Translations under genes and position numbers: made by a program
Shown here: piece by piece, positions 6,889 through 36,219 of the stretch
Layout of the letters: the number at the start of each line of letters is the position of its first letter
Position numbering within the stretch: position 1 is the stretch's first letter
Source: Bacteroidota bacterium
GTDB taxonomy: Bacteria > Bacteroidota > Bacteroidia > Flavobacteriales > Schleiferiaceae
DNA length: 64,000 bases
Direction of reading: 5' to 3'
Assembly: GCA_024742495.1 (NCBI GenBank)
Contig: JANSYJ010000002.1
Location: 310,001 to 374,000, forward strand
Notes under the pieces: generated by a model
What the model saw: only the letters and a program-made list of their open reading frames with translations
Told to the model about the DNA's origin: nothing
Databases searched by the model: none

Positions 6889-7086
6889 GTGCTTTATCTA
6901 ATTGATTAGCACCATTCTTTATTCGAATTTCAAAAAAAGCGCTGTCGCAGATGGATGGCTTTTCCCAAGAACAATATTTAGCGCAAAAATAGGGCTTACC
7001 ATTTGACTATGAATGCTTACCACTTATCGAATTTAGATAATAGGTCTGCTTACTTATTCTAAGTTTTGACGATCAACTCCAGGCTT

Positions 7087-13000: not shown

Positions 13001-15174
13001 GCGAAACTGGTTCTGGAGCTTCGGCTTATTCTAAAACTTTTAGGCTTGAGGTGCTTGATGGCATCCTTAACTTAAACACCGCCGCAAGCAAGGATAATAG
13101 TATTTTAATGGCCATTGAAATTAGCGATGTTCTAAGTGCTCCCGAAAGTATTTTACTTGACAAAGAGCAAATTACTTTTAGCACATTTGTTGGCCAACAA
13201 GATTCTGCAAGCTTTTATTTTATGAGTCAAGACAGTGTAGTTCGCAGCATCGATTCCTTGCAAATTACTGGAACAGGGGCCCAATATGTACAAAATAGCC
13301 TAGTGATTGGCAGCAGCTTAAATCCTGCGGATTCATTATTAACTTGGTTGCATTATTCAGCTCCATCAAGTCCCATCAGCAATCAACAAGTGGACTTTAT
13401 ATATTTCAGTAATGGCGATACTTTAATTCAAACGCTTAATATTAGCGCCCTTTGTAAGCCGGCTGGTACCGCTTGTGATGATGGCGATGCGAACACCGTG
13501 AATGATATTGAAGATGGTCAGTGTAATTGTGCTGGAACTTCCATTAATAGTCCTAGTCCCGCTTTTAGCTTGAACATCAATTGTGGAGGTTCTGCTTTGA
13601 TTAGTCCAATTAGCGGTAAAAGCTATGTGGCCGATCAATACAATATTGGAGGTTATACGCATGGCTATTCCGATGGGGTGGCTAATACCTTGGATTCTTC
13701 TTTGTATAGCACCGCTAGGATTGGCCGTAATATGTCATATAATATTCCAATTCCCAATGCTGGCGATTACACCATCACCTTGCATTTTGCCGAACTTCAA
13801 TCTTGGCTTATGGGCCCCAACCGCCGCGTATTTGATATTTCCGTTGAGGGCCAATTAATCCTCGATGATTTGGATATTTTCAGTCAGAGTGGAGCCGGAG
13901 CAAGTGCCTATCAGTATCAATTTCAAACCCAGGTAATTGATGGTGAGCTAAATATTAATACTGCTGCAAGTATTGATAATAGTCTTCTGGTGGCCATAGA
14001 AATTGAATCCATAGATCCCGGAACGGCGGACGGATTGTATTTAAGTTCGAGCAGCATCCAAATTATTGCGCCGGTAAATCAGCAGCAAAGTGAGGGCTTT
14101 TTCCTTATTAATGGCGATAGCATCGATCGTGAAATTGATTCTATTCAGTTTCAGGGCTTTGCTCAAAGTTATATTCAATCGAGCTTGCAATCTGGCGACC
14201 TCTTGAATCCCGATGATTCCTTATGGGTGCAAATTGATTTTACCGCTCCAAACAGTGCTTTAAACAATGCCTTGGTTGAAGTTTATTATTTCAGTAATCA
14301 AGACACCTTAGTACAGGAACTAGTGTTAACTAGTACTTGTCCTATTGCAGGCAGTACTTGTGATGATGGCGATCCCAATACTATTAATGATGTAGAGGAT
14401 GGAAATTGCAATTGCGCAGGTAGTGCTGCGAATGCCAACTTCAGTTTAAACGTGAACTGCGGCGGCCCGGCTTATATCAGTCCGTTTACGGGGATTTCCT
14501 ATGTGGCGGATCAATACAATATCGGCGGTTATACCCACAGCTATGCGAATGGAGTGGATAATACCAGCGACTCGGTACTATACAGTACTTGCCGCATTGG
14601 AAAAAACATGTCCTATCATATAGCAGTGCCAGCTGAAGGTATTTACGAGGTTAAGCTTCATTTTGCCGAATTACAAGGTTGGCTCATGGGTCCTAATCGC
14701 AGGGTTTTTGATATTTCCGCAGAAGGACAATTGGTATTGGATGATATCGATATTTACACTTTAAGTGGTGATGGTGCTTCGGCTTATAGCGAAACCTTTA
14801 ACGTAGAAGTGTTAGATGGAGAGTTGGATTTAAATACTGCGGCAAGTAAAGACAATAGCCTTTTAGTGGCCATAGAGGTAAAACAGTTGAGTACTAATTC
14901 CAAGCGATTAAGCCAGCAGGAAGAATTGACATTAAAGGGATGGGAGATTTTCCCAAATCCGCTAAATTCCGGTCAAGACTTAAATCTGCATCTTGAAACA
15001 AGTTCAGCCAGCACTTTGAGGATTATCAATCAATTCGGTGCTATTATAGCTGAGCAGAATCTGCCAGAAGGCGGAAAGCACCACTTAAGTGCTTTAAAAT
15101 TGAATCCAGGAGTTTACTTAGTAGAACTCTTTCAGAACGGGAAGCATCAGTATAAGAAGTTGTTAGTGAACTAG
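7087..15174 (+). CDS. Giant secreted multidomain protein: beta-propeller, Kelch, five malectin-like domains, T9SS tail
   Basis: The start is placed at the ATG at 7087, which opens a clear signal peptide (MKRIAFLFLIISLLSGTSLTAQ); an in-frame TTG 21 bases upstream is less likely. The 2695-aa product contains, in order: a sugar dehydrogenase-like six-bladed beta-propeller (about residues 22-538), an Asp-rich calcium-binding TSP3-like stretch (about 547-610), a LamG-like sandwich (about 618-855), Kelch repeats (about 857-1168), a HYDIN/ASPM-like beta-sandwich (about 1172-1283), then five malectin-like carbohydrate-binding domains starting near 1286, 1574, 1867, 2159 and 2452. Malectins 2-5 are each preceded by a Cys-rich linker with CDDGD and CNC. 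The last 77 residues (from GWEIFPNP) are a type A T9SS sorting domain, so the protein is exported and probably cell-surface anchored. It is likely an adhesin or polysaccharide-binding protein; any enzymatic activity of the propeller is uncertain. Confidence 0.85.
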   Translation: MKRIAFLFLIISLLSGTSLTAQINFSSTGLNGVSITNPTSLDFGPDGRLYVSVQSGEIYAYTVQRQSANSYTVVATETILAIKQIQNHDDDGALHNVVKRQITGILADGTAVNPVLYVSSSDYRIGGGGGGSDKNLDSNSGIVSKLVWDGSQWVKVDLVRGLPRSEENHATNGMQLDASTNTLYLAVGGNTNAGSPSNNFAFLTEYALSAAIVSIDLSDLDSRPILTDAQGAKYVYDLPTLDDPSRPNANGISDPSTAGYDGIDINDPFGGNDGLNQAKWTVNSPVQVYASGFRNAYDLVLTDDGRMYTWDNGANQGWGGHPANEGVGTATNDWVPGEPGSTGPGPNDAKVNNKDGLHFISGPGYYGGHPNPLRANPSGAGLFTHDHANGSGGFNGVWRNSITSNTSTTLPVDWPPVDLALAHPVEGDFQNAGVDDLSIYTITASTNGMAEYKASNFNNTMNGDLLAASFNGNIYRVSLNAQGSINSAADVTVLATGFGAVPLDVTSQNDAEIFPGTIWAATYGSNAITIFEPQDFANCSGTYDPNIDEDNDGYTNADEIDNQTNPCSGASFPSDFDQSLINGFKVSDLNDPDDDDDGLADSLDAFALDPANGSNLSLVFDYPLLNGDPGFGLYGLGFTGFMSNGSDDYLDLYYTEDNSTVEIIAGGAVGLLSFNDAPSGSPFNAANDLKNGFQFGLNVNANTLPFEIEAALVGPLMQSNPQGDQFHAFYIGKGDQDNFFMFGANANQGNLVLSIWIEENGSLSQTNYTIPGLGAASELSLFLEINPLNQSIQAKIDIGNGLQNVGSSFAFPAFMANIFNGNEALALGVAAGKDAADPSFNATYDYIKATYIPNNLSGNWTYLHDGTNCSSSGNQSSCPQGRHEAAYVEVGDKFVLIGGKEHGSNANIYDPNTGIWTLGAAAPIDLHHFQAIEYNGLVYALMGMTGAFPNETPVEHIYIYDPLIDQWFEGPEIPASRRRGSAGAIKYNNKIYLVGGIQNGHTSGWVPWMDEFDPRTNTWSQLPDAPRPRDHFHAIESNAKLYAAGGRNSGASGFFGATIGEVDVFDFASNTWSTLANNVPIKVADAAVAHIGDELILIGGENSLNSASNLSQALNLSQGTWRNLDSLNTGRHGTQAIVNNQAIYLASGSDVQGAATLLSQEVFSFGNPQAPILNPSIKGSLAGPALIDFGSLGSQQSAQKTIYLKNANGNQGFLIDTVYFKNGSAGLNFNGLAAYPALLTAGDSLALNILFAGSSNLEDTLVLISSALNQNLQIPVNAEVLIADAIRINCGGPSYVAQDGAEYDADQFFLNGSTYSKVIGISNTSDPAIYHTERWAENLAYSIPVDANGSYQVDLHFAEIYSPNFVSGARIMDISMEGQLLQSALDIYDTVGGYAALVKSFTVNITDGSLDLNIAGVVENAKLSAISISPSGGGLQFNPANHHFQATALGISDSVNVSLVNSSTSLISIDSVQIIGAQKADFSHNLNPGTAIPAAYSLALNMYFNPVSNTPVVRTAQVQVYYDGRTLPLVFNISGEAACPIAGSFCDDGDPNTQNDINDGNCNCSGTPISNPSYSLYINAGGAEYTAADGKTFIADQYFLNGKTSGAPQSIANTLDDELFSSERWAADLAYAIPLPQAGTYQVSLYFAEIWSGAFGNGKREFSMWLEDSMVIEDLDIHAVAGPQTAHILSFIISADDTLNLSSLASINNAKLAAIGLEYIPSGTALQGPMLSVSNLSFPARSSQNLDSLSVYVLNPDTLAYSLDSVQFIGSASNVFTASGANLIPAQDSSLFWLYFNPQAQAPANFVATAKFHFANADTVLTLAIDAVLTCPAAGTACDDGDSTTLNDQEDGSCNCLGTPIPSPNFSLNINCGGPAYTSAVSGKEYLADQYNIGGYTHSYSGSIVNASDSTIYSTCRIGRNMSYAIPLDVATTYEVTLHFAEVQNWLMHPNKRVFDISAEGQLVIDDLDLVSETGSGASAYSKTFRLEVLDGILNLNTAASKDNSILMAIEISDVLSAPESILLDKEQITFSTFVGQQDSASFYFMSQDSVVRSIDSLQITGTGAQYVQNSLVIGSSLNPADSLLTWLHYSAPSSPISNQQVDFIYFSNGDTLIQTLNISALCKPAGTACDDGDANTVNDIEDGQCNCAGTSINSPSPAFSLNINCGGSALISPISGKSYVADQYNIGGYTHGYSDGVANTLDSSLYSTARIGRNMSYNIPIPNAGDYTITLHFAELQSWLMGPNRRVFDISVEGQLILDDLDIFSQSGAGASAYQYQFQTQVIDGELNINTAASIDNSLLVAIEIESIDPGTADGLYLSSSSIQIIAPVNQQQSEGFFLINGDSIDREIDSIQFQGFAQSYIQSSLQSGDLLNPDDSLWVQIDFTAPNSALNNALVEVYYFSNQDTLVQELVLTSTCPIAGSTCDDGDPNTINDVEDGNCNCAGSAANANFSLNVNCGGPAYISPFTGISYVADQYNIGGYTHSYANGVDNTSDSVLYSTCRIGKNMSYHIAVPAEGIYEVKLHFAELQGWLMGPNRRVFDISAEGQLVLDDIDIYTLSGDGASAYSETFNVEVLDGELDLNTAASKDNSLLVAIEVKQLSTNSKRLSQQEELTLKGWEIFPNPLNSGQDLNLHLETSSASTLRIINQFGAIIAEQNLPEGGKHHLSALKLNPGVYLVELFQNGKHQYKKLLVN
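11701..14890 (+). repeat. Four tandem linker-malectin coding units
   Basis: Units of about 875-885 bp begin at roughly 11701, 12580, 13453 and 14339. Each encodes a linker with the pattern C-x-x-AG-x-x-CDDGD-x-x-T-x-ND and CNC, then a malectin-like domain, then a short beta-sandwich in all but the last. The last three units are the most alike, sharing LADQYNIGGYTH-type and CRIGRNMSY-type blocks. This points to recent intragenic duplication. Confidence 0.85.
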
Positions 15175-18850: not shown

Positions 18851-21232
18851 TTAACCCCAGCGCAGGGTTATTTCTTTAAAGTCTTCAGGTACCGGGAACT
18901 TGAAGCTATTTTCGCTCATCTCAATTTTAGCATCATAGGCTTCACCATCTACATCTACCGAGCTAGGGGCCTTTTCAAAGCCGTGATATACCATGGTAAA
19001 CTCGCCAAAAGGACTTGGCATGCGCCCTTCCTTATGTTGGGTTATCCGGTACTTCTCATCGGTTGGTAAAACGCTGAAATTGCGATTGATATAAAAACCT
19101 TGCTTATGATTATAGCCATCACCTGGATCGTCATATAACATGCTGTCAACGCTCTCAAAGCCTTGGTACACGTGTAATTCCTGATCGTGACTTTCACTTT
19201 CCACATATTGACTAACAGGCCCCATTGGGATAATGGCACCGGCCTTAACCAAGACGGGAATTTGATTCATTGGGGTTTCCAAAAACACTTCTTTACCACC
19301 TTCAATCATTTCATTAGTGAAGAAGTGGTACCATTTGCCTTTGGGCACATAAAGGCGGCGACCTTGTCGATCGGGACCCAATACTGGGCAAACGAGAAGG
19401 TGATCTCCAAAAACAAATTCATCTTGGCGATACCAAGTTTGTGGATCTTTATCATCAAAGAAAGAAAGCGGACGAATCATCGGCTTGCCATCCTTTACAT
19501 ACTGGTAGAAATTGGTATAATGATAGGGAAGGAGTTTATACCTCAATTCGATAGCTTCACGCACTAAGTCGGTGGCTTCGTCGCCAAAACTCCAAGGTTC
19601 CTGCTCGCCATGATCTCCCGAAGAATGATTGCGCATCAAAGGATGGAATACCGCTAATTGCATCCAACGAACAAATAGTTCCATGGTTGGATGTTCTGTG
19701 AATCCGCCAATATCGGTTCCAACAAATGAAAATCCACTAATACTTAAACGCTGGGTTTGCACATTAGCCACCCATAAATGCTCCCAGCTGGCAATATTAT
19801 CGCCCGTCCAAACGGAGCTATAACGCTGACCACCCGAATAGGTACTGCGGGTAATAATGAAGGGACGATTTGGGAATGCCGATTTTTTAACGCCCTCATA
19901 TGTAGCACGACTCATTTGCATGCCATATACATTGTGGGCTTTACGGTGACTACAAGGGTTGCCGTCAAAATCGTGACGAATATCCAGGGGGAATGTCTTT
20001 GTAGGGACATCCATAATGGCTGGTTCGTTCATATCGTTCCAAACCCCTGCCAAACCTACATCTTCAATAAGGCCCTTAAAAAGTCCTGTCCACCATTCCC
20101 GAACTTCAGGATTGGTGAAATCTGGAAAGTAGCAATCGCCTGGCCATACCTTCCCTTTGTATAGTGGTCCATCGGCATGCTTGCAGAAATAGTCCTTTTC
20201 AAAACCTTCCTTACACACCCAATAGTCCATGTCAATCTTGATACCGGGGTCAATAATCGCCACGGTTTTAAAGCCCATGTCTTTTAGCTTTTTCACCATT
20301 CCCTTGGGGTCAGGAAAATTCTCCTTGTTCCAAGTGAAGCAGCGAAAGCCGTCCATATAGTCGATGTCTAGGTAAATCGCATCGCTCGGTATTTTTAAAT
20401 CTCGAAGCTTGGTAGCGATTTCCATTACCTCTTTTTCTGAGGAATAGCTCCACTTACATTGATGATAACCCAAGCTCCATTTTGGTGGCATTTCGGGCTT
20501 TCCTGTTAAGCGGGTATAGCGTTGCGCTACATTCATCAGGCTCGAGCCTGCAATAAAGTAATAGTTAATTTCTCCGCCTTCCGCCCAAAAGCTGGTAACA
20601 TTTTTCCGCTCCTTAGCGAAGTCGAAAAAGGTGCGATAAGTATTGTCGAAGAAAATCCCATAACAGCCTTCTTTGTGAAGACCATAGTAAAATGGAATAT
20701 TTCGGTAAAGGGGATCGCGATCTTTGGCGAAACCGTATTCATCGGTGCCCCAATTTTGAAAGCGATGATCGCGCATGTTAAGATTACTGGCTTTATCGCC
20801 TAATCCAAAGTAATGCTCACCATTAAGGGAGCGCTTACTCATCTTAACAATATTGTCGCCACGCTGCGAGTCTTCCTCCCAATGGAAGCCTTTTTCATCC
20901 TCATTTAGCAAATTGCCTAGGGAATCATAAAGGCTTACTTTAAGGCTATCCTTTAACACAACACAAGTTACCTTGGGCGTTTTAAGTTCATAGCAATTGT
21001 CCTTCTCCTCAATCTTAAAATAGCTAAAGCCACTGCGGTGGTCTTCATCCATAGCATAAGAAAAGTCGGGGGAAAAGTAACCTTTCGCCGTGTAGCGAAA
21101 GCGTAAAACGTGATTGGTTACCGCTTCCACAATTAGCATTACACCATTGTGGGCGTGGAATATTATAGAAGATCCACGCTCCTCTACTTTGAGAAGGCGA
21201 TCTGGAAAATGTTCATTAATAAGAGTCTGCAT
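18851..21232 (-). CDS. GH31 alpha-glucosidase
   Basis: A 793-aa glycoside hydrolase family 31 enzyme without a signal peptide, so probably cytoplasmic. Catalytic features are intact: the nucleophile Asp400 in WNDMNEP and the acid/base Asp478 in SVWTGDN, with the substrate-pocket blocks YLDIDYMDG and SGFSFVGTDIGGF. GH31 alpha-glucosidases release glucose from alpha-1,4 or alpha-1,6 linked oligosaccharides. The gene is divergent from the glycogen-binding domain gene and shares a control region holding two copies of the GTGTAAANTTTACAC motif. With glgB and the glgE homologue it forms an alpha-glucan turnover cluster. Confidence 0.93.
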   Translation of the reverse strand: MQTLINEHFPDRLLKVEERGSSIIFHAHNGVMLIVEAVTNHVLRFRYTAKGYFSPDFSYAMDEDHRSGFSYFKIEEKDNCYELKTPKVTCVVLKDSLKVSLYDSLGNLLNEDEKGFHWEEDSQRGDNIVKMSKRSLNGEHYFGLGDKASNLNMRDHRFQNWGTDEYGFAKDRDPLYRNIPFYYGLHKEGCYGIFFDNTYRTFFDFAKERKNVTSFWAEGGEINYYFIAGSSLMNVAQRYTRLTGKPEMPPKWSLGYHQCKWSYSSEKEVMEIATKLRDLKIPSDAIYLDIDYMDGFRCFTWNKENFPDPKGMVKKLKDMGFKTVAIIDPGIKIDMDYWVCKEGFEKDYFCKHADGPLYKGKVWPGDCYFPDFTNPEVREWWTGLFKGLIEDVGLAGVWNDMNEPAIMDVPTKTFPLDIRHDFDGNPCSHRKAHNVYGMQMSRATYEGVKKSAFPNRPFIITRSTYSGGQRYSSVWTGDNIASWEHLWVANVQTQRLSISGFSFVGTDIGGFTEHPTMELFVRWMQLAVFHPLMRNHSSGDHGEQEPWSFGDEATDLVREAIELRYKLLPYHYTNFYQYVKDGKPMIRPLSFFDDKDPQTWYRQDEFVFGDHLLVCPVLGPDRQGRRLYVPKGKWYHFFTNEMIEGGKEVFLETPMNQIPVLVKAGAIIPMGPVSQYVESESHDQELHVYQGFESVDSMLYDDPGDGYNHKQGFYINRNFSVLPTDEKYRITQHKEGRMPSPFGEFTMVYHGFEKAPSSVDVDGEAYDAKIEMSENSFKFPVPEDFKEITLRWG

Positions 21233-21370: not shown

Positions 21371-21397
21371 CTTAGTGTAAATTCTACACTATATTTG
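21371..21397 (+). promoter_or_regulatory. Operator and -7 box of the glycogen-binding gene
   Basis: The operator copy GTGTAAATTCTACAC (21375-21389) directly abuts a perfect -7 box TATATTTG (21390-21397). The box places transcription start near 21404, about 12 nt before the ATG at 21416. A bound regulator would cover the -33/-7 spacer. Confidence 0.65.
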
Positions 21398-21415
21398 TGG
21401 GCTCAAACTATAATT

Positions 21416-21718
21416 ATGGCAATTCGTAAAAAATTCCTCAAGTCGAAACCGCTTTGTAAAGTAAGTTTTGATTTTAGTGCCAACCGCATTGCTGGTGAGG
21501 CAAAGAAAGTTGAAGTACTCGGTGATTTTAATGACTGGTCACCAATTCCATTACGTAAGGTAAAGGGTGATTTTACCCGAACCGTGGATTTAGAAACCGG
21601 AAAAGAGTATCAATTCCGCTATCGCATTAATGGCGACCTCTGGGAAAATGATGAGGCAGCTGATGCTTATGTTAATAATGGCATCTCTGGTGATAATTCA
21701 GTGATTAGGCTGAATTAA
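21416..21718 (+). CDS. Stand-alone glycogen-binding (CBM48-like) domain protein
   Basis: The ATG at 21416 is preferred; an in-frame TTG at 21395 falls inside the -7 box and cannot be the start. The 100-aa protein begins MAIRKKFLKSK and consists of one early-set sandwich with VEVLGDFNDWSP and YQFRYRINGDLWENDEAADAY, the hallmark of CBM48/AMPK-type glycogen-binding modules. No catalytic domain is attached. It may recruit enzymes to glycogen or act as a regulatory subunit. Its stop codon interlocks with that of glgB (TAA at 21716-21718 on plus, 21715-21717 on minus). Confidence 0.85.
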   Translation: MAIRKKFLKSKPLCKVSFDFSANRIAGEAKKVEVLGDFNDWSPIPLRKVKGDFTRTVDLETGKEYQFRYRINGDLWENDEAADAYVNNGISGDNSVIRLN

Positions 21719-23622
21719 TTCTTCAGTTTATAAATCACGGCTCCAAGTGGTGGGAGTTCAAGAACTAAGGAGTTTTGGCGACCATGCCAAGGCTCCTTTT
21801 CGCTTTTCACTTGTTTGGCAATAGCGTAGTCGCTGCCCCAAAAAGCAATTTCATCACTATTGTAAATTAGCTGGTATTGCCCAATCTCAGGAGCTCCAAC
21901 TCTATAATTATTGCGAGGTAGTGGCGTGAAATTTAAGACACAAACCAAAGTCTCGGTTTCACCTTTTCGGATGAAGCTAATTACCGAATTTTCATGGTCA
22001 TTTAATTCCAACCATTCAAAACTGTGGTAGTCGTAATTTAATTCGTGTAATGCCTTCTCACTGCGGTAAAGGCCATTCAAGGATTTTATGGTTTTAAAGA
22101 TTCCCTGATGTGCTTCAGTTTCGGCTTCCCACCAATTCAATTGGTTTTCGAATTGCCATTCCTCTCTTTGTCCAAATTCGCCACCCATAAAAATGAGTTT
22201 CGCTCCAGGATGAAGGTACATCCAGCTGAATAGTAAACGAAGGTTGGCAAATTGCTGCCAAGAATCGCCCGGCATTTTTTCCAATAATGACTTTTTACCA
22301 TAAACCACTTCATCATGCGAAAGCGGAAGCATAAAGTGTTCGGTAAAGGTATAGGCTAAACTGAAGGTTAGTTCATTATGGTGATGGCGTCGGTAAACCG
22401 GATCGCGTTTAAAGTAGTTTAAGTTGTCGTTCATCCATCCCATCATCCATTTTAGTCCAAAACCTAATCCTCCTTCATGGGTAGGGAAGCTAACTCTATT
22501 ATAAGAGGTGGATTCTTCGGCTATGGTTTGCACATCAGGGTAATGAGCATAAACCGCTTCATTGAATTGTTTGAGGAATTCAATCGCATCTAAGTTCTCA
22601 TTGCCGCCAAATTGATTCGGTTCCCACTGCCCATCTTCACGCGAGTAATCCAAATAAAGCATGGAGGCTACAGCATCAACCCTAAGGGCATCTACATGAA
22701 ATTGGTCGAGCCAGAAAAGCGCATTGGAAATAAGAAAAGATCGTACTTCTGAACGACCGTAATTGAAAATCAAACTCTTCCAATCGGGATGGTAGCCCTT
22801 GCGAGGATCCGGGTGCTCGTAAACACTGGAGCCATCGAAATTCCCTAAACCATGCAGGTCATTGGGGAAATGAGAGGGTACCCAATCGAAAATCACTCCG
22901 ATTCCCGCGCTATGAAAAGCGTCAATAAGGTATTTAAGATCTTCGGCTGGTCCGAAACGACTGCTGGCTGCAAAGTATCCCGTAATTTGATAACCCCAAC
23001 TTGGCTCATAGGGGTATTCCATTACCGGCATAAACTCAATATGCGTAAAACCAGCATCTTGAACATAGGGAACTAGCTCGTCCGCCAATTCACGGTAGCC
23101 CAGCACATCTCCGTTTTCTTTGCGTTTCCAAGAAGCTAAATGCACTTCGTAAACGCTCATGGGGGCCTGTAAGCTGTTTTTAGCTTTACGGCTTTGCATC
23201 CACTTTTTATCCTGCCAGCCATGTGCTCCACTTTGGCAAACCAGCGAGGCGGTGCGCGGAGGATGTTCAGCTTGTTTAGCAAAGGGATCAGCCTTTTCTA
23301 GCACCTCTTGGCTGTCGCTATTTTTAATTCGAAATTTATAGGCGTCACCAACTTTTGCACCGGCAATAAAGCCCTCCCAAATTCCCGAGCTGTCCCAGCG
23401 CACTTGCAAAGGATGAGCTTCGCCATTCCAATGATTAAAGGAACCAATTACTTGAACCTCATCTGCCGCCGGAGCGAAAACTGCAAAGTACACGCCTTCT
23501 TGGTTCTCGACCTTTAAGGGATGGGCGCCAAAATGCTGGTATAATCGATAATGGCGACCTTCTTTAAAAAGGTGTACATCTTGATCGCTAAAAAGGGAGT
23601 GGGCAATTGTTTGATTGGACAT
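21715..23622 (-). CDS. glgB: 1,4-alpha-glucan branching enzyme
   Basis: A 635-aa GH13 family 9 enzyme that forms alpha-1,6 branches in glycogen. An N-terminal CBM48 (about residues 30-110, with VQVIGSFNHWNGE) precedes the catalytic barrel. Region I is DWVPSHF, the nucleophile is Asp316 in LRVDAVASM, the acid/base is Glu369 in AEES, and the third acid is Asp437 in LSHDEVV, so it should be active. It lacks the extra N1 domain of the longer E. coli form. It starts 6 bp after the glgE homologue and is probably co-transcribed from the promoter at 25562-25591. Confidence 0.95.
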   Translation of the reverse strand: MSNQTIAHSLFSDQDVHLFKEGRHYRLYQHFGAHPLKVENQEGVYFAVFAPAADEVQVIGSFNHWNGEAHPLQVRWDSSGIWEGFIAGAKVGDAYKFRIKNSDSQEVLEKADPFAKQAEHPPRTASLVCQSGAHGWQDKKWMQSRKAKNSLQAPMSVYEVHLASWKRKENGDVLGYRELADELVPYVQDAGFTHIEFMPVMEYPYEPSWGYQITGYFAASSRFGPAEDLKYLIDAFHSAGIGVIFDWVPSHFPNDLHGLGNFDGSSVYEHPDPRKGYHPDWKSLIFNYGRSEVRSFLISNALFWLDQFHVDALRVDAVASMLYLDYSREDGQWEPNQFGGNENLDAIEFLKQFNEAVYAHYPDVQTIAEESTSYNRVSFPTHEGGLGFGLKWMMGWMNDNLNYFKRDPVYRRHHHNELTFSLAYTFTEHFMLPLSHDEVVYGKKSLLEKMPGDSWQQFANLRLLFSWMYLHPGAKLIFMGGEFGQREEWQFENQLNWWEAETEAHQGIFKTIKSLNGLYRSEKALHELNYDYHSFEWLELNDHENSVISFIRKGETETLVCVLNFTPLPRNNYRVGAPEIGQYQLIYNSDEIAFWGSDYAIAKQVKSEKEPWHGRQNSLVLELPPLGAVIYKLKN

Positions 23623-23628
23623 AAGTAA

Positions 23629-25548
23629 TTAGTCAATGACTTTGAATAAATGAACGGGTCGGGCAGGATCGAGGCGAACGTAGTTCCACTCTTCCCGCCA
23701 AGGATAATCGGCTCCCGAAATATAGTCATGCATCCTATAACCTTTATCGTTTAGGGGCATTAAATCTTCCGGAAGTTGCAGCCAGCCTTCCTGGGCATTA
23801 TAAGGGTCTAAGTTTGTAACACAGACCACCCGGTCTTGATCATCCCATTTAATAAAGCCAATTAAAGCTTGATTTTCAATTTCTAAAAATCGGAAATTTC
23901 GATTTTGCTGCAAGGGGCTAAGCTCCTTACGGGCCGCGTTTAATGTGCGCATTAGCCAGGTGACCTTATTTTCGGTATCCCAATGGTGTTGCTTTATTTC
24001 GTATTTCTCCGAATCACGATATTCTTCGGTTCCGGGCAGGGCTTCATTTTCTAGGTTTTCGAAAACCGGACCATAAATCCCATAATTAGCGCTTAAGGTT
24101 CCGGCTAAAAATAGGCGCGCCATAAAAGCAGAGGCATTCCCACTTTGCAGTATCAATGGCAAGTGATCGTGACTATTGGGCCAAAAGGAAGGCCTTAAGA
24201 AATCAATATAGGGTTCGGAGAATAGTTCTTCGCAATAGTCGATGAGCTCATGACGGAAATTCTTCCAAATAAAAGCCGATCCCATTTGGGCAAATCCCAA
24301 CTTTGAAAGCTCCAGGAAGAAACCTTCATTACTTTGGGCATTAGTCTGAAAGAGTACTTCCGGGTATTCCGATTGCACTTCATCAATAAGCCAGCTCCAA
24401 AAGTGATAAGGCTTAGTATGGGCATTATCGGCTCTAAATATTTTCACCCCTTTTTTAATCCAAAAAACCACAACCTCCTTTAGGGCCAGCCATAGTTCTT
24501 CCCATTCCTCGCATTCAAAATCAAAGGGATAAATATCTTCATATTTAAAGGGCGGGTTTTCGGCATATTGCAAATTACCGTCAGATCTATTTTTAAACCA
24601 TTCGGGATGCTCTTTTATCCAGGGATGATCGGGCGATACATGAAAGGATAAATCGAGGGCTAGCTCTAGGTGCTGTTCTTTTAATTTGTTAATCAGCTGA
24701 CTGAATTCCTTATCGGTTCCTAAATCGGGATGGATGCTGCAATGTCCTCCATCTTTGGAACCAATTCCCCAGGGGGATCCAACATCTCCTTTTTGAGCTG
24801 CGGTGCTGTTATTTTTGCCTTTCCGATGTTTTTCACCGATTGGGTGTATCGGTGGAAAAAGTACGGTGTCGAAGCCCAAATCGGCAATTCGCGGAATTAG
24901 AGCCTCCACATCTTTAAAACGGCCCGCCTTGGCCTTGCCACTGCTGCGCGGAAATAGCTCATAAGTGGCGGAAAAGCCAGCTTTCTTGCGATCGCAATAA
25001 GCCTTATGCGTATCTGATTCGCTGATAACATCCATTATCGGATGGGCGGTGAAAGCATTCCTTACCTCCTCCTCTTGAAGGATTTCAGCGGCATTTAAAT
25101 AGTTTTCTTCACAAGCCTTTAACCATGATTTGGCCTTTGGATGCTTGGCTTTTATTAAGGCCTCTAAATAAGGTCGACCATCATTAATTAAAACTTCTAA
25201 ATCCTTGTCATGTGCAAATTCAAGCGCAAGTCGCTCCAACCAAGTTAAACCATGGTCTACCCAAGCTTGCACCTTATACTCAAAGGCGCCAATTTCATTG
25301 AAATGTATTGTGGCTGAGAAGGCATCCTCCTCACCCTCTACTAAATCTGTATGCTGCCAAGTCTGTTGATCGCTATGCTTCCAAAGCACACGCCCTCTTA
25401 TAACATCATGCCCATCTGCATATAGCAGGCAATTTAAATCGACTGCTTCTCCAAGTACCCGCTTTAAAGCGTATTGGCCATTATTGATGGAAGGAGAAAT
25501 CGTACTTATTATTACGCGATGGCGTCCTTTGTTTAGCATTTTACTCAT
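23629..25548 (-). CDS. glgE: GlgE-like maltosyltransferase homologue with altered active site
   Basis: A 639-aa protein aligned by eye with alpha-1,4-glucan:maltose-1-phosphate maltosyltransferase. It shares the N-terminal RVIISTISPSINNGQYALKR block, FPPIHPIGEKHRKGKNN, the SPDHPW motif and FRADNAHTKP, where Asp374 is the nucleophile. The C-terminal part with TSANYGIYG-like and DSEKYEIK blocks also fits. However, 29 residues after the nucleophile, where characterised GlgE enzymes have the general acid/base Glu in F-L-(A/S)-E-A-F-T, this protein has Asn403 in FQTNAQS. The codon is AAT at 24340-24342. The third acid (in NSHDHL) remains. It could be a diverged transferase, a phosphate-binding or regulatory homologue, or use Glu407. 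TreS and Mak partners are not in the window. It is the first gene of a glgE-glgB operon. Confidence 0.85.
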   Translation of the reverse strand: MSKMLNKGRHRVIISTISPSINNGQYALKRVLGEAVDLNCLLYADGHDVIRGRVLWKHSDQQTWQHTDLVEGEEDAFSATIHFNEIGAFEYKVQAWVDHGLTWLERLALEFAHDKDLEVLINDGRPYLEALIKAKHPKAKSWLKACEENYLNAAEILQEEEVRNAFTAHPIMDVISESDTHKAYCDRKKAGFSATYELFPRSSGKAKAGRFKDVEALIPRIADLGFDTVLFPPIHPIGEKHRKGKNNSTAAQKGDVGSPWGIGSKDGGHCSIHPDLGTDKEFSQLINKLKEQHLELALDLSFHVSPDHPWIKEHPEWFKNRSDGNLQYAENPPFKYEDIYPFDFECEEWEELWLALKEVVVFWIKKGVKIFRADNAHTKPYHFWSWLIDEVQSEYPEVLFQTNAQSNEGFFLELSKLGFAQMGSAFIWKNFRHELIDYCEELFSEPYIDFLRPSFWPNSHDHLPLILQSGNASAFMARLFLAGTLSANYGIYGPVFENLENEALPGTEEYRDSEKYEIKQHHWDTENKVTWLMRTLNAARKELSPLQQNRNFRFLEIENQALIGFIKWDDQDRVVCVTNLDPYNAQEGWLQLPEDLMPLNDKGYRMHDYISGADYPWREEWNYVRLDPARPVHLFKVID

Positions 25549-25789: not shown

Positions 25790-28700
25790 GTGTTTTTAAT
25801 CTTTGATACCGAAACAACCGGTCTTCCCATTCGGGATGATGCGCCATTAAGTGATTTTGATAATTGGCCCAGGGCAGTCCAAATAGCTTGGCAACTCCAT
25901 GATGAGAAAGGCCAACTTGTAGAAGCCAAGGATTTCGTTATCAAGCCAGAAGGATTTGATATTCCCTTTAATGCCGCCAAGGTTCATGGGATTACCACCG
26001 CTGTTGCGGAAGAATATGGTATCGCACTAGAGGAGGCCATGGCCGAATTTAGCAAGGCGGTTGAGAAGACTACTTTTTTAGTAGGGCACAATGTGCAGTT
26101 CGACAACAATGTACTAGGCTGTGAGTATTTAAGATTAGAGCAAAAGAATTTATTAGAAGGCAAGAAGGTTTTAGATACGGGTGAAGAAACCCGAGAGTAT
26201 TGTCAGTTACCAGGCGGTAGAGGTGGCCAGTTTAAAATGCCAAAGCTGGAGGAGCTCTATGAAAAGCTTTTTGGCCATAAATTCGCTGAAGCCCATAATG
26301 CGGCTGCGGATGTGGAAGCCACCGCCCGAAGTTTTTTTGAGGCCCTTCGTTTAGGGATTTACAGCAATTCCCGTTTAGAGTGGACTGATGGTCAGCGTGA
26401 GGATTTCGATTCGGCTAATCCTACTACCATTGCACCCATCGGACTTAAAGTCCGAAGTTTTAAAAAGCTGGCCCAAGAATTAGAAGCAAAACAAGCTGTT
26501 GCCGGTGGAGTAGGAGTTGAGGGGCAGGTGAGCTTAGATGAGGATTTAAAATTCACCCATCTTCACGTTCATACCCAATATTCCATTTTACAAGCTACCT
26601 GCGATATAAACGCCTTAATAAACAAGGCTAAGGAAGATGGCATGCCAGCGGTGGCGATGACGGATATTGCCAACCTCTACGGCGCATTTAAATTTGTTTC
26701 GGCGGCTAGAGCGGCGGGCTTAAAGCCCATCGTGGGAGTGGAGTTTTATTTGTGCCGCAACCATAAAGATCGCTCGGTTAAAGACAATGGTTATCAAATT
26801 GTTGCAATCGCCAAAAACAAAGCGGGTTATCACAGTCTGGCCAAATTATCCTCTCATGCATTTGTAGATGGCTATTATTATGTGCCTAGGATAGACAAGG
26901 AGCTGCTGCTGCAATACAAAGAAAACCTCATTATTACCACGGGAGGTTTAAGTGGCGAAATTCCGCGTTTAATCCTGAATGTTGGAGAGAAGCAGGCAGA
27001 GGAATCCTTTGAATGGTACTACAATCAATTCGGCGACGATTTTTATGTCGAATTGGTGGATCATGGCCTGGAAGAAAATAAAGTAGTAAACCAAACCTTA
27101 ATTCGTTTCGCCCGCAAATATGGAGTGAAGTTCTTCGCCAGTAATGATGCTTATTATCTCAATGAGGGGGACGCCAATGCCCATGACATCCTACTCTGTG
27201 TAAAGGAGGGTGAATACCAAAGCACCCCAATAGGGCGTGGCCGCGGATACCGTTATGGTTTCCCCAATGATCAGTTTTACTTTAAAACTGATGCGGAGAT
27301 GAAAAGGCTATTCGCAAGTATACCGGAGGCCATAGCCAATACCCAGGAAATAGTCGATAAGGTGGAATCCTACGATTTAGCACGGGATGTGCTTTTACCG
27401 GCCTTCGACATTCCGGAAGACTTTGTTGACCCCTTAGATGAAGAAGATGGTGGGAAAAGAGGTGAAAACAATTACCTAAAACATCTTACCTACGTTGGAG
27501 CCGAAAAGCGCTACGGAACAATAAGCGAGGATGTCAAGTCTCGTCTCGATTTTGAGCTTGAAACTATTGCAAACACTGGCTATCCAGGCTATTTCTTAAT
27601 TGTACAAGATTTTACTTCTCAGGCGCGAAAAATGGGAGTAAGCGTTGGGCCAGGTCGTGGTTCAGCGGCAGGATCTGCCGTAGCCTATTGCATCGGTATT
27701 ACCAATGTGGATCCCATTAAATACGATCTCCTGTTTGAGAGATTCTTGAATCCAGATCGAGTGTCTCTTCCCGATATTGATATTGATTTTGATGATGAAG
27801 GTCGCGGGAAAATCATTGATTGGGTGGTAAACAAATACGGTCAAAATCAAGTGGCCCAAATTATCACCTATGGAACAATGGCTGGTAAATCAGCTATTCG
27901 CGATGCCGGTAGAGTGTTGCAGTTGCCGCTATCAGAAACCGACCGCGTAGCCAAATTGGTTCCCGATACTAAGCTAAATAAGCTCTTTAGTTGGACCGAT
28001 AAGGAAATGGGTGAGAAGCTCAATGGCGATCTCTTCCAATTGGGTAAGCAACTAAAAGAATTGGCCCAGCAAGAAGACCGGCTGGAAGCGCAGGTAGTCA
28101 ATCAAGCGCGAATCCTGGAAGGCTCGGTTCGCAATACCGGCATTCACGCCTGTGGGGTTATTATCACCCCCGACGATATCACCAAGTTTGTTCCTGTTTC
28201 GGTAGCCAAGGATTCGGATTTATACGTTACTCAATTCGACAATTCGGTGGTTGAAAGTGCCGGGATGTTGAAAATGGACTTCTTGGGTTTAAAGACCCTG
28301 AGTATCATTAAGGATGCTATTAAAATTGTGAAGGACCGTCATGATGTGTCGATTGACCCTGATGAGATTCCCCTTGATGATCTTAAAACCTTCGAGCTCT
28401 ATCAAAGCGGTCAAACCAATGGTACCTTCCAGTTTGAGAGCCCGGGAATGCAAAAGCATCTTAAGGCTTTAAAGCCTGATAAGTTTGCGGACCTTATTGC
28501 CATGAACGCCCTGTATAGGCCGGGCCCCTTGGAGTATATCCCGAATTTTATTGCCCGTAAAAATGGACAGGAGGAGATCAGTTACGATCTCCCAGACATG
28601 GAGGAATACCTGGCTGAAACCTACGGTATTACGGTTTATCAAGAGCAAGTGATGCTTTTATCCCAGAAATTGGCTGGCTTTACCAAAGGTGAAGCGGATG

Positions 28701-30097
28701 TGCTCCGAAAAGCCATGGGAAAGAAGAAGCGCGATGTCCTCGATAAAATGAAGCCTCAATTTATTGAGCAGGGAAAAGAGCGCGGACATGATGAGGAGAA
28801 ACTCAATAAAATTTGGAAAGACTGGGAGGCCTTTGCAGCCTATGCATTTAATAAATCCCATTCTACTTGTTATTCAGTAGTAGCCTTTCATACAGGCTAT
28901 CTTAAAGCAAATTATCCGGCGGAGTATATGGCTTCGGTGCTCACCCATAACATGAATGATATAAAGAAGGTTACCTTTTTTATGGAAGAGTGTAAGCGGA
29001 TGGAAATCCCCGTTTTGGGTCCGGATGTAAATGAATCGCAATTTAAATTTACCGTAAATGAGAAAGGAGCAATTCGCTTTGGACTAGGCGGAATGAAGGG
29101 CGTTGGTGAAAATGCGGTTTTGGCCATTGTGGATGAAAGGCTTGAAAATGGAGCCTATCCTAGTTTCTTTGATTTATTAAAGCGCATCGATCTCCGGGCG
29201 GTAAATAAGAAAACCTTGGAAAGCCTGGCTCTTGGCGGGGCATTTGATGATTTCCCAAAAGTTCATCGGGCCACCTTTTTTAATGAAGGCCAGGATGGAA
29301 AGTCCTTTTTAGAAAGAGCCCTTCGATATGCTCAAATGCACAAGGCTCAAGAAGAATCTGCCCAGGTATCCCTTTTTGGAGAAAGTCAGGAAGTAGATAT
29401 GCCCGAACCGGAAGTGCCGGTGGTGCAAGCTTGGCCTCGAATGTTTTTATTGGGCAAGGAGAAGGAGGTAAACGGACTCTATCTAAGCTCTCATCCCTTA
29501 GATGATTTTCGTTATGAGATGGAGCTAGTGGTGAGCAATAAGCTTTCGGAGTTCCAGTATATCGAGCGCATGAACGATTTTACGGTAGCGGGTATTATTT
29601 CCGATGCCTTGCATTTAACTGCGCGTAGTGGTAAGCCCTTTGGTCGATTTACTATTGAAGATTACAGCGGTAAGCATGAATTTGCTTTATTCGGAGATGA
29701 ATACCTAAAGTTCAAGTCTTATATCGAAACCAATCTTTTGGTACTCATTCGCGGTAAGGTATCGCGCTACACGCCTAGGTGGGAAGGTGCAACGGAAAGG
29801 ATTGAAGCCAAGATTACGCAGATTAGCCTCATTCAAGATGCATTAGATCGTCATGCGCGAGGAATTGAATTGCAGTTGGCGGTTCAGGATGTTTCTCCCG
29901 AAAATATAGAAAGCATTGATAGACTTATCAATGAATATCAAGGAGAGAAGGCGATGAATTTAGTGGTTTTTGATGCGGATAATCCCAAGATAAACCTCCG
30001 AATGCCGCGTCGCTCCAAGGCTGGCGTAAGTTTAACTAAGGATAGTTTAGACGCCTTTAAGCAATTGCCCTTTGCTCGTATGCAATTGAAAACCTAG
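25790..30097 (+). CDS. dnaE: DNA polymerase III alpha subunit with N-terminal proofreading exonuclease
   Basis: A 1435-aa replicative polymerase starting at GTG. Residues 1 to about 185 are a DnaQ-like 3'-5' exonuclease (FDTETTG, then GHNVQFDNNVL and HNAAADVEATA). A PHP domain starts near residue 255 (FTHLHVHTQYS). The polymerase palm carries the catalytic acids in PDIDIDFDDEG (about residue 661), followed by the fingers, beta-binding region and an OB domain near 1190-1290. The fused exonuclease is the arrangement found in many Bacteroidota, so a separate epsilon subunit is not needed for proofreading. This is the main DnaE; a second alpha-type polymerase starts at the right end of the window. 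Confidence 0.96.
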   Translation: MFLIFDTETTGLPIRDDAPLSDFDNWPRAVQIAWQLHDEKGQLVEAKDFVIKPEGFDIPFNAAKVHGITTAVAEEYGIALEEAMAEFSKAVEKTTFLVGHNVQFDNNVLGCEYLRLEQKNLLEGKKVLDTGEETREYCQLPGGRGGQFKMPKLEELYEKLFGHKFAEAHNAAADVEATARSFFEALRLGIYSNSRLEWTDGQREDFDSANPTTIAPIGLKVRSFKKLAQELEAKQAVAGGVGVEGQVSLDEDLKFTHLHVHTQYSILQATCDINALINKAKEDGMPAVAMTDIANLYGAFKFVSAARAAGLKPIVGVEFYLCRNHKDRSVKDNGYQIVAIAKNKAGYHSLAKLSSHAFVDGYYYVPRIDKELLLQYKENLIITTGGLSGEIPRLILNVGEKQAEESFEWYYNQFGDDFYVELVDHGLEENKVVNQTLIRFARKYGVKFFASNDAYYLNEGDANAHDILLCVKEGEYQSTPIGRGRGYRYGFPNDQFYFKTDAEMKRLFASIPEAIANTQEIVDKVESYDLARDVLLPAFDIPEDFVDPLDEEDGGKRGENNYLKHLTYVGAEKRYGTISEDVKSRLDFELETIANTGYPGYFLIVQDFTSQARKMGVSVGPGRGSAAGSAVAYCIGITNVDPIKYDLLFERFLNPDRVSLPDIDIDFDDEGRGKIIDWVVNKYGQNQVAQIITYGTMAGKSAIRDAGRVLQLPLSETDRVAKLVPDTKLNKLFSWTDKEMGEKLNGDLFQLGKQLKELAQQEDRLEAQVVNQARILEGSVRNTGIHACGVIITPDDITKFVPVSVAKDSDLYVTQFDNSVVESAGMLKMDFLGLKTLSIIKDAIKIVKDRHDVSIDPDEIPLDDLKTFELYQSGQTNGTFQFESPGMQKHLKALKPDKFADLIAMNALYRPGPLEYIPNFIARKNGQEEISYDLPDMEEYLAETYGITVYQEQVMLLSQKLAGFTKGEADVLRKAMGKKKRDVLDKMKPQFIEQGKERGHDEEKLNKIWKDWEAFAAYAFNKSHSTCYSVVAFHTGYLKANYPAEYMASVLTHNMNDIKKVTFFMEECKRMEIPVLGPDVNESQFKFTVNEKGAIRFGLGGMKGVGENAVLAIVDERLENGAYPSFFDLLKRIDLRAVNKKTLESLALGGAFDDFPKVHRATFFNEGQDGKSFLERALRYAQMHKAQEESAQVSLFGESQEVDMPEPEVPVVQAWPRMFLLGKEKEVNGLYLSSHPLDDFRYEMELVVSNKLSEFQYIERMNDFTVAGIISDALHLTARSGKPFGRFTIEDYSGKHEFALFGDEYLKFKSYIETNLLVLIRGKVSRYTPRWEGATERIEAKITQISLIQDALDRHARGIELQLAVQDVSPENIESIDRLINEYQGEKAMNLVVFDADNPKINLRMPRRSKAGVSLTKDSLDAFKQLPFARMQLKT

Positions 30098-33351: not shown

Positions 33352-36135
33352 TTAGTTTAAAACCACGGTTTCATGCATAAACTGACCATCGCGTTCTACC
33401 ATTAATTGGTAAATGCCTCGGTCAAAGTCGGCTGCCGAAATCTCCAGATAAGCACCACTATTGTGTTCTTCCATACTAGAGCTATAAACCAGTCTTCCGC
33501 TCATATCGCGCAAGCTTAATTTCGCTGAGGAGCGACCTTTACCTAGCAATTCAACCCTAATGAAACTGTTGCTCGGATTAGGATAAACCATTAGTTCATT
33601 TTTAAATAGCGGGTTTTCGCCAACTGAAATAATGCCTTGAACTTCCACTTTCTTAGATGTGTATAAACGGTATTCACCCGCCTGAAGATTAATTAGGGCA
33701 TTTACGGAGCTAACATTAATGCTATCGCCACTAAAGTATTCATACCACCAACCGGTACTTTGGAAGGCAGGATTAACATCATTGCTGCTCACGCCAAAGT
33801 TGCCAAGTACCACAGCGTCAAAGTCGGGGTGATCCAAATTAATACGCTTAGTGATATTACTCAGTGAGTAGCGAAAATTGTCACTATTAAAAGTGGGGTT
33901 TTGCACGCGTAGGCGGATGAGCTCCGAGGTAATCCCATACAAGCGCGCCCGATTGGAGTTTTGCTGGTAATTCCATAAAATGGGCTTATTGCAAATTCTG
34001 CAAGGGTCATTGATGCCAATATCATAACCAAGCTCACCAAATTGCCACAGCATTTTTGGACCAGGAGCTAGGTAGAGGAATAGGGAGCTAAGCTCTTTAC
34101 GCAATAAGGCGGTGGCCAAATCCTGCGTATTATAAGAGCCTTGAGAATTTCCGAAATTCTGAAGTTTATAAAGGATGCGTTCCTCATCATGACTTTCTTG
34201 GTAGCCTATTAAATACTTATTATTCCAGCCTCGGTTACTGTGGAGAATACCACTGAAATTGGAAGCAAAGCCCATGGCGCCTTCGGTATATTCATGATTC
34301 ATATTTCCCCATAAAAGAAAACCTTGGTCGGAGAGTGCTTTCTCCTCGGCATTATCGGCGAAATGTTCTAGGATCATATAAGTGCCAGGCTTGGCAGCTT
34401 CCATCTTGGTCTTAAGACGATTTAGAATGTCAATTCTACTTTGGTCATATTGGCCCCAAGCAGCTACATTACCCAAGGTATTATTCTGGGTAAAGCCTTT
34501 GGATAAATCCATGCGGTAACCATCCACATTGTATTCAGAAACCCAATACTCCATAACCTTATCGGCAAAAACAGCGGTTGCGGCCGATTCATGGTTAAAG
34601 TCAAAGCCTACATTAAAGTCATGCTTGGGATCTTGATTTAACCAAGGGTTTTGAGCAGACGGCTTCCCAAATTGCCCAGCACCGGGATCGAAATACAATT
34701 GCACAAAGGGGCTCAGACCAAAAGCATGATTGAGCACCACATCGATGAAAACGGCAATACCTCGTCCGTGACATTCATCTACAAAGGCTTTGAATTTTTC
34801 GGGACTGCCATAATACTTATCCAGTGCAAGGTGGAAGCTTGGATTGTAACCCCAGCTTTCATTGCCTTCAAATTCATTAACCGGCATCAGCTCTATGGCA
34901 TTAATGCCGAGGCGCTGCAAATAGTCAAGAGTATCAATTAAAGTTTGATAGTTATGCGCGGCTATAAAATCGCGAATAAGCAATTCGTAAATGATTAGAT
35001 CTTCCTTGGCGGGAGGAGTGAAATTTGGATTCTGCCAAGTATAAGTAGGAGCATCCATTTGTACGAGGCTTGCAATACCATTAGTCTTGCCTGTAGGATA
35101 GGCCGGTAAGTTCGGCCAGGTATTAGCACCAATGAAGCCATCATTCCAAGGATCTAATACTAATTCGGAATAAGGGTCGGCAATTTTAATAGCACCATCT
35201 ACCCAATATTGAAAAGCATAGTAATCACCGGGATTAAGGCTATCAATGCTTAACCACCAATCTTCCCCATTGGGATCTTTTTTCATGAAGTAATCTGGAT
35301 GCGGTTGCCAATCGTTGAAATCGCCAATTACATAAACGTAATTCTTAAAGGGGGCATGCAGCTTTAAGCTGATGGAGCTAGCACTAATATGATTAATTCC
35401 GTATTCCAAGCCACTGGGAACCGCTTGCGTTTGAACGGGATTATTAACCACATAGTAAACTGTATCTCTTACCACGGTGGTGCCATCGTCGGCAACAAAT
35501 TCAACTAAATGCAGTCCGGGGGCTCCGGCATTATAAGACAAATTATAAGTTCGAGTATTTGTGGCTGAGCCCATCAATACGCCATTGTCGTAAAAATCTA
35601 AATCGGCATCTAAGCTACTCGCTCCCTTAAAGTTGAGGTTTTGCCCTGCATTAACAATTTGGGTGGTACTGGGGCTAATAATCGTGGCGAGTAAACCAGC
35701 ATTCGCTGGATAAATGGGATAAAAGATATCGCTGCCATCGGCTGCTCGACCAACAACATTTCCTGAAGCATCACGAAAAACAAATGCTAATCCATTAACC
35801 GTAGTGCCAGAATTAACACCGTAAAAAGTAGGTATGTGGTAAGTAATACTATGCTTGTTATTTCCAATGGAAGTCATAAGCACATTAGGGTCAGAGGTGC
35901 CCCAATTACCTTGAACGTTTTGCCAACTTCCAGCGCCACCGCTTTGAGTGATAATTCCAGTGTGTGCGTAAATGGGAACAAATCCACTTAAGGCGCCATT
36001 ACCCTCAGTAGCATCAAAAGTTATGGTAACGGTATCGTTTTGGGTGGGAAAGGCTGGATCCACCGTAATTACTTGCGCGAAAAAGTATAGAGGGCAAAAA
36101 AGTAAGATCCAAAGTCGATTTATCTTCAAAGTCAT
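33352..36135 (-). CDS. Secreted GH13 alpha-amylase with T9SS sorting domain
   Basis: Start set at the ATG at 36135, which begins a signal peptide (MTLKINRLWILLFCPLYFFAQ); an in-frame TTG at 36156 is less likely. The 927-aa protein has an N-terminal beta-sandwich (about 20-140), a short Ig-like region, a CBM48-like early-set domain (about 245-335, with VYVIGDFNDWQP), a GH13 catalytic barrel and a C-terminal type A T9SS domain (from VYPNPSNS). Region I is IDVVLNH, the nucleophile is Asp543 in YRMDLSKG, the acid/base is Glu590 in MILEHF, and the third acid is Asp650 in SHDEER. It should cleave alpha-1,4-glucan outside the cell and feed the intracellular GH31, GlgB and GlgE-like enzymes. An operator-like palindrome sits upstream. 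Confidence 0.93.
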   Translation of the reverse strand: MTLKINRLWILLFCPLYFFAQVITVDPAFPTQNDTVTITFDATEGNGALSGFVPIYAHTGIITQSGGAGSWQNVQGNWGTSDPNVLMTSIGNNKHSITYHIPTFYGVNSGTTVNGLAFVFRDASGNVVGRAADGSDIFYPIYPANAGLLATIISPSTTQIVNAGQNLNFKGASSLDADLDFYDNGVLMGSATNTRTYNLSYNAGAPGLHLVEFVADDGTTVVRDTVYYVVNNPVQTQAVPSGLEYGINHISASSISLKLHAPFKNYVYVIGDFNDWQPHPDYFMKKDPNGEDWWLSIDSLNPGDYYAFQYWVDGAIKIADPYSELVLDPWNDGFIGANTWPNLPAYPTGKTNGIASLVQMDAPTYTWQNPNFTPPAKEDLIIYELLIRDFIAAHNYQTLIDTLDYLQRLGINAIELMPVNEFEGNESWGYNPSFHLALDKYYGSPEKFKAFVDECHGRGIAVFIDVVLNHAFGLSPFVQLYFDPGAGQFGKPSAQNPWLNQDPKHDFNVGFDFNHESAATAVFADKVMEYWVSEYNVDGYRMDLSKGFTQNNTLGNVAAWGQYDQSRIDILNRLKTKMEAAKPGTYMILEHFADNAEEKALSDQGFLLWGNMNHEYTEGAMGFASNFSGILHSNRGWNNKYLIGYQESHDEERILYKLQNFGNSQGSYNTQDLATALLRKELSSLFLYLAPGPKMLWQFGELGYDIGINDPCRICNKPILWNYQQNSNRARLYGITSELIRLRVQNPTFNSDNFRYSLSNITKRINLDHPDFDAVVLGNFGVSSNDVNPAFQSTGWWYEYFSGDSINVSSVNALINLQAGEYRLYTSKKVEVQGIISVGENPLFKNELMVYPNPSNSFIRVELLGKGRSSAKLSLRDMSGRLVYSSSMEEHNSGAYLEISAADFDRGIYQLMVERDGQFMHETVVLN

Positions 36136-36219
36136 CAGAGTAAATATTTGTCGCAATTTAAGAAAAAAACGAATGCTAAAAATTGACCTTCGTTCTGTAT
36201 CCCTTTGTGGCTCTATTTT

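Follow-up and report, generated by a model that had tools for sequence, protein, structure and literature searches.

GlgE, the alpha-1,4-glucan:maltose-1-phosphate maltosyltransferase (EC 2.4.99.16, subfamily GH13_3), uses a nucleophile aspartate and an acid/base glutamate, numbered D394 and E423 in Streptomyces coelicolor (Sco) and D418 and E447 in Mycobacterium; excerpts of PMC4526890 confirm these numbers, which a sequence-only reading of the locus described here had given correctly. Lys355 makes an ionic contact to a mimic of the donor phosphate (same excerpts). Mutation of Glu423 leads to loss of activity in S. coelicolor GlgE, and its E423A variant binds malto-octaose from subsite -2 to +6 (excerpts of PMC5076824). 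Outside the actinomycetes, GlgE-pathway bacteria make the donor solely via TreS and maltokinase, according to the available part of a review (PMC11046441). In plants, ISA2 has been proposed as a non-catalytic helper of isoamylase (excerpt of PMC12510319). A literature search by titles and the starts of abstracts, with most subscription journals outside its coverage, found no natural inactive GlgE. In what follows, the roles of GlgE residues are taken from portions of PMC4526890, PMC8238978 and PMC5076824; residue numbers such as Glu423 and Lys355 are those of Sco GlgE, and Asn403 and Phe334 those of our protein.

We analysed a 64,000-nucleotide stretch of Bacteroidota DNA (the window), from a genome designated G000. 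Translation of positions 25548-23629 on its minus strand gives a 639-aa GlgE homologue with no internal stops, which we compared with 120 distinct canonical homologues and with a second altered homologue, L003, from genome G002; the window protein and L003 are called the altered pair. The features of the gene are as follows:

23629 to 25548, minus strand: GlgE-like protein of 639 aa without the acid/base residue (PF11896 and PF21702 above cut-offs; best PDB sequence matches are GlgE; the structure model aligns best to GlgE structures)
24859 to 24861, minus strand: Leu230, in the place of Tyr251 (Tyr in 120/120 canonical homologues, Leu in both altered proteins)
24640 to 24642, minus strand: His303, in the place of Gln324, which contacts O6 of the -1 sugar (canonical Gln in 117/120, Asn in 3/120; His in both altered proteins)
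24547 to 24549, minus strand: Phe334, in the place of the phosphate-binding Lys355 (Lys in 120/120 canonical homologues)
24427 to 24429, minus strand: Asp374, in the place of the nucleophile Asp394, retained (alignment to Sco GlgE; Asp in 120/120 canonical homologues)
24340 to 24342, minus strand: Asn403, codon AAT read 24342-24340, in the place of the acid/base Glu423 (Glu in 120/120 canonical homologues)
24169 to 24171, minus strand: His460, adjoining Asp461 (D480), where canonical GlgE has Pro (alignment of homologues)

The protein has the domains of GlgE, with PF11896 (126.4 bits), PF21702 (67.8) and PF00128 (25.2) all above their cut-offs, and domain N/S and the GlgE C-terminal domain accompany the GH13 barrel. 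Our AlphaFold2 model has a mean pLDDT of 89.9, with lower values in the blocks that hold the changed residues (68-77 at 231-270, 72 at 331-340 and 77 at 401-410). Compared with the PDB, it places eleven GlgE entries on top (Z 45.4-52.0 over 588-628 residues, rmsd 2.9-4.1), and the next entry follows at Z 36.6; the best row is the E423A form of S. coelicolor GlgE, tied with other GlgE rows. The genome (3.6 Mb, listed as 99.9% complete) has one PF11896 match, the window gene itself, so that the second, complete glgE that the sequence-only reading had proposed to look for was not found by a whole-genome search with this profile.

Translation bears out that reading's central observation, an Asn at residue 403 (AAT, 24342-24340). 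The phmmer alignment to S. coelicolor GlgE runs without a gap from Asp374 (D394) to Asn403 (E423), which makes both the 29-residue spacing and the pairing of Asn403 with Glu423 clear; Asp374 is kept, as claimed. The NPPFKYEDIYP block had also been read correctly, and its Phe334 occupies the place of Lys355. As a possible replacement acid/base residue, Glu407 had been named; the residue is in fact Glu408, and it is Gln in the altered relative and Pro in 86/87 others, and the gapless alignment lends such a role no support. A Glu at 425 was likewise rejected as a substitute, being present only in L003, and among the changed conserved columns no new Glu or Asp is common to both altered proteins.

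Beyond Glu423 to Asn and Lys355 to Phe, the altered pair carries Gln324 to His, Tyr251 to Leu and Arg449 to Lys, the last at a +4 contact that is also Lys in 2/120 canonical sequences. The pair retains every one of the six side chains listed as -2 contacts (K264, N268, S279, D359, K534 and Y535), together with D394, R392, N395, D480, N352, Y357 and the acceptor-site residues H397 and W448. The GlgE phosphate site of the window protein has thus lost K355 and holds N352, Y357 and N395. The new His303 and His460-Asp461 may resemble histidines of ordinary GH13 enzymes.

The changes are shared by a second species. L003, whose genome G002 is placed in the same genus, is 73% identical to the window protein and has the same Asn and the same Phe, so that the suggested search for other homologues with this substitution found one; its 6542-base contig is the public record CATMQD010000197.1 from an uncultured Flavobacteriales bacterium. 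A sequencing error at the Asn403 codon, put forward earlier as a way in which the observation might fail, is ruled out by this second genome with the same Asn and the same block of changes. The family contributes 8 sequences to the canonical set, genome_contigs 78 and a class-wide sample 34, after L070, L180 (the L153 gene), L032 (the L003 contig) and L001 and L002 (repeats of the window gene) had been set aside; the homologue sample retained 80 of 140 relatives, and G194 and G271, below the family cut-off, are uncounted. The equivalents of Lys355, Asp394 and Glu423 are present in 120/120. Family-wide, 10/88 genomes have a strong GlgE match, with the altered type only in G000 and G002.

The canonical set has 121 columns conserved at 95% or more, and 22 of them are changed in both altered proteins, 19 to an identical new residue; a further 3 are changed in just one. 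The control, the canonical relatives L004 and L005, has 0/117 conserved columns changed in both and 2 changed in one. Changes in both altered proteins fall in 18/59 conserved columns of the segments that we judged to line the active site versus 4/62 elsewhere (Fisher p 0.0007, for segments picked after the changes were known). The loss at the active site is part of a block of changes, not a point change.

Between G000 and G002, identity is 103/116 in the active-site segments and 355/510 elsewhere, and three canonical pairs give 107/116 and 386/510, 99/116 and 311/504, and 115/116 and 415/509; G000 against the canonical L004 gives 70/116 and 282/510. These values indicate that the rewriting of the pocket predates the separation of the two species and that the result has been held since, under a constraint about as tight as that seen in canonical pairs.

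In a phylogenetic tree (LG+G4), the altered pair branches by itself (support 100), and the pair with G003 and G005 is separated from G006, G015, G007 and G020 (support 98), a grouping which indicates that the gene was inherited. Both its position and the tree join the gene to the other GlgE of its genus, which rules out a foreign origin. On the stem of the pair, GlgE gathered 0.65 substitutions per site versus 0.069 for GlgB and 0.024 for DnaE, the trees including partial sequences for GlgB and DnaE of G002 and DnaE of G003. After the split, the GlgE distance is 0.445 within the altered pair (GlgB 0.277) and 0.32 between the canonical G003 and G005 (GlgB 0.40), suggesting that constraint came back, though somewhat weaker. 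Synonymous sites are saturated (YN00 failed for 17/18 pairs), and we therefore used codon-position differences in place of dN/dS: G000 and G002 differ at 24%, 15% and 55% of first, second and third positions, with no stops, which shows purifying selection.

A gene on its way out, under selection relaxed after the loss of the maltokinase gene (mak), would also evolve fast, as the stem does (0.65 against 0.069 for GlgB) and as the raised rate after the split continues to do, and another member of the genus, G004, has neither GlgE nor maltokinase. However, the 639-codon frame is intact in two species at 73% identity, the codon positions differ in the pattern of purifying selection, 19 new residues are the same in both, and the pocket segments are conserved as in canonical pairs; we regard decay as improbable. 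To judge by these patterns, natural selection is evidently still maintaining the window protein.

The surroundings of the gene are as follows:

18851 to 21232, minus strand: GH31 alpha-glucosidase-type protein, a flank common to relatives (PF01055, 421 bits; synteny)
21395 to 21718, plus strand: 107-aa protein with an AMPK1_CBM/CBM48 glycogen-binding module (PF16561 and PF02922 above cut-offs)
21715 to 23622, minus strand: glgB, 1,4-alpha-glucan branching enzyme (NCBIfam NF003811, 932.9 bits, cut-off 741)
23623 to 23628, no strand: 6-base gap between the glgE-like gene and glgB, the site of the maltokinase gene in relatives (gene order; PF18085 names the maltokinase in G003)
25790 to 30097, plus strand: 1435-aa gene, the other flank, common to relatives (synteny)

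The 1435-aa product is presumably DNA polymerase III alpha. In G003, G005, G006 and G015 the order is glgE-mak-glgB, the 540-aa gene of G003 being the maltokinase (PF18085), and in G001 mak lies between the C-terminal part of glgE and glgB on one contig, with the remaining glgE on another; these five genomes have flanks in common with the window, namely the GH31 gene and the 1435-aa gene. The glgB gene directly follows the glgE-like gene, after 6 bases in the window and 5 in G002. The earlier statement that fold and operon are conserved thus stands for the GlgE domains and fold and for the adjoining glgB, but not for the operon as a whole, since mak is missing from between them. In G007 and G020, canonical GlgE lies apart from glgB and mak. 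The 107-aa CBM48 protein may be a small partner that binds glycogen; its gene, on the strand opposite to glgB, stops where glgB stops, and a similar protein sits there in G005, G015 and G001. A gene of about 495 aa adjoins glgE in G003, G005 and G015 (L132:9588-11084 on the minus strand, and similarly placed in L133 and L134); that of G003 has no Pfam match at 1e-5, and the part of the window from glgE to the 1435-aa gene contains no gene of this kind.

The maltokinase profile PF18085 has no match in G000, in G002 or in the GlgE-less G004, and the G003 maltokinase protein as query has none in G000 or G002. The profile is present in 7/8 family genomes with canonical GlgE, the exception (G025) being 70% complete. 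A class-wide sample of 395 genomes has PF11896 above cut-off in 34 besides G000; GlgE is canonical in 34/34, PF18085 is found in 33 of these (marginally in G335), and the 34th, G441, has a maltokinase by protein search. The absence of a detectable maltokinase from G000 and G002 suggests that maltose 1-phosphate is not made there by the usual route.

The other supply gene is uninformative: TreS (TIGR02456) has no match over cut-off in the 11 genomes examined (G000-G007, G015, G020 and G025), all of which have weaker amylase-type matches, so that it fails to discriminate the altered from the canonical type. The check for donor supply that had been suggested therefore found neither a maltokinase in G000 nor a TreS over the cut-off in any of the 11. 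Seven of these 11 genomes have maltokinase. Similarly, GlgC is over its cut-off in 0/11 genomes, with weaker matches in 11/11. The protein could in principle still be an ordinary GlgE that tolerates Asn403 and receives maltose 1-phosphate from an undetected source: it has the domains and overall fold of GlgE, and the donor might come by a GlgM-type route. But that GlgC-GlgM route would need GlgC, the phosphate Lys is Phe, maltokinase was not found in these searches, and mutation of Glu423 leads to loss of activity in S. coelicolor GlgE (excerpt of PMC5076824), all of which makes the idea scarcely credible.

Glycogen can probably be made in G000 without GlgE, as the genome has a GT3 glycogen synthase (PF05693, 637 bits) encoded away from the glgE locus. 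GT3 occurs in 9/11 genomes examined, including G000 and the GlgE-less G004, with none in G015 or G025. The GT5/GlgA match of G000 (PF08323) is a 273-aa fragment, and retention of a GT5 fragment alongside GT3 is described for Bacteroidetes in the available part of PMC11046441. Elsewhere in the window, two proteins carry a Por secretion tail: one of 2702 aa with matches to malectin and Kelch (7066-15174, plus strand), and a 934-aa member of the alpha-amylase family with DUF4961 (33352-36156, minus strand).

That the window protein has lost ordinary GlgE chemistry is well supported: the acid/base Glu and the phosphate Lys are gone, and the searches found neither a maltokinase nor a second GlgE. 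The sequence-only reading had offered three options, a new donor, a changed mechanism or a role without catalysis, and the sequence does not separate them. The explanation that we favour, at about even chances, is that GlgE after the change no longer uses maltose 1-phosphate and has been kept because it binds glucan and assists glycogen synthesis, probably without catalysis. The window gene would descend, in its old position, from an ordinary glgE whose original task was lost and which was retained for a different one. Its old donor/acceptor groove may bind the non-reducing ends of alpha-glucan without cleavage or transfer, and the protein may hold chains or act as a scaffold both for the GT3 synthase and for GlgB, encoded only 6 bases away, in the way that ISA2 is proposed to serve plant isoamylase. 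We lean towards glucan binding without catalysis because most of the residues that contact sugar are still there, whereas those at the leaving group are lost. Several points go against it. The nucleophile Asp and its neighbours are kept, although a pure scaffold could strictly do without them; the changes at Tyr251, Gln324 and Arg449 may have altered glucan binding; and both the GlgE/GlgB rate after the split, above the canonical one (0.445/0.277 versus 0.32/0.40), and the lower model confidence in the pocket blocks weigh against this reading.

The retained nucleophile, with Arg392 and Asp480, would be expected of a new enzyme, in which Asp374 still forms a covalent sugar intermediate and either the donor's leaving group needs no acid or a new residue such as His460 or His303 acts as acid/base. 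Plant myrosinases, retaining enzymes without an acid/base Glu, are a precedent. Both histidines are new and identical in the two altered proteins, and the pocket is under constraint; however, no candidate donor is known, the changed conserved columns hold no new Glu or Asp common to both, and an acid/base histidine is proposed from position alone. We consider a new enzyme unlikely, yet a serious contender. The six kept -2 contacts and the adjoining glgB would also suit a sensor, which would bind maltose or the end of a chain in its pocket as a signal and regulate glycogen enzymes or other partners. The Pfam matches of the window protein include no regulatory domain, though, and no partner is known, which leaves a sensor very improbable.

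Catalytic residues are also missing from one GlgE homologue outside the altered pair. An uncultured Saprospiraceae genome (G111) carries on contig CALHBQ010000359.1, at L070:3145-4995 on the plus strand, a GlgE homologue with Leu, Ser and Gly at Lys355, Asp394 and Glu423; the contig stops inside the gene. This homologue also lacks -2 residues (K264 to Ile, N268 to Phe), N352, N395 and W448. The available sequence of G111 has one PF11896 match and no maltokinase match by protein search, which did match in the other Saprospiraceae tested (3/3, G112-G114). L070 is a separate loss, by a different path from that of the altered pair, and supports the idea that catalysis has been lost more than once but not that the new function is the same; as it also lacks -2 residues and Trp448, the kept-groove pattern is not repeated there. 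More broadly, it may be that within one genus GlgE acquired a new function that depends on its pocket (as a new transferase or as a dedicated subunit for glucan binding or sensing) with loss of the donor kinase, that L070 is a separate Saprospiraceae loss, and that catalytically dead GlgE is recurrent in glycogen metabolism. We put this forward tentatively and with more doubt than belief, a probability that we lowered because L070 has lost -2 residues and Trp448 and its contig ends inside the gene.

Domain-based annotation would call the window protein a maltosyltransferase and ascribe to the organism a GlgE pathway which it probably lacks. The gene whose active site changed alongside loss of the substrate supply is an orthologue rather than a spare copy, and relatives in the same genus hold the ancestral enzyme, which makes the genus a compact natural experiment in the passage from an enzyme to a non-enzyme or a new enzyme. 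It may also offer a bacterial parallel to plant ISA2, and with it a way to learn what a dead amylase-family protein does for glycogen.

Compared with known systems, the window protein is like GlgE in its domains, fold, gene position, nucleophile, -2 site and two acceptor-site residues, and unlike it in lacking the acid/base Glu and the phosphate Lys, in about 20 more changed conserved residues and in having no maltokinase detected in its genome. It is a GlgE homologue and positional orthologue that should not be filed as a GlgE maltosyltransferase, because three defining features (acid/base Glu, phosphate Lys and maltokinase supply) are absent; a fair label would be "GlgE-like protein, acid/base residue absent". 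Plant myrosinases (GH1) have likewise lost the acid/base Glu naturally and kept the nucleophile, but they belong to a different family and are active thanks to a good leaving group, and no donor with such a leaving group is known for the window protein. The laboratory E423A form of S. coelicolor GlgE shares the missing acid/base residue and the present nucleophile, and binds malto-octaose from -2 to +6 (excerpt of PMC5076824); unlike the window protein, it carries a single designed change, with the phosphate Lys and the remaining site intact. Plant ISOAMYLASE 2 (ISA2), the partner of ISA1, is alike as a GH13 protein of alpha-glucan synthesis that selection has preserved without a working catalytic site (excerpt of PMC12510319). 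It belongs to another GH13 subfamily and is a paralogue of its active partner, whereas the window protein is an orthologue with no active copy in its genome, and whose partner is only inferred.
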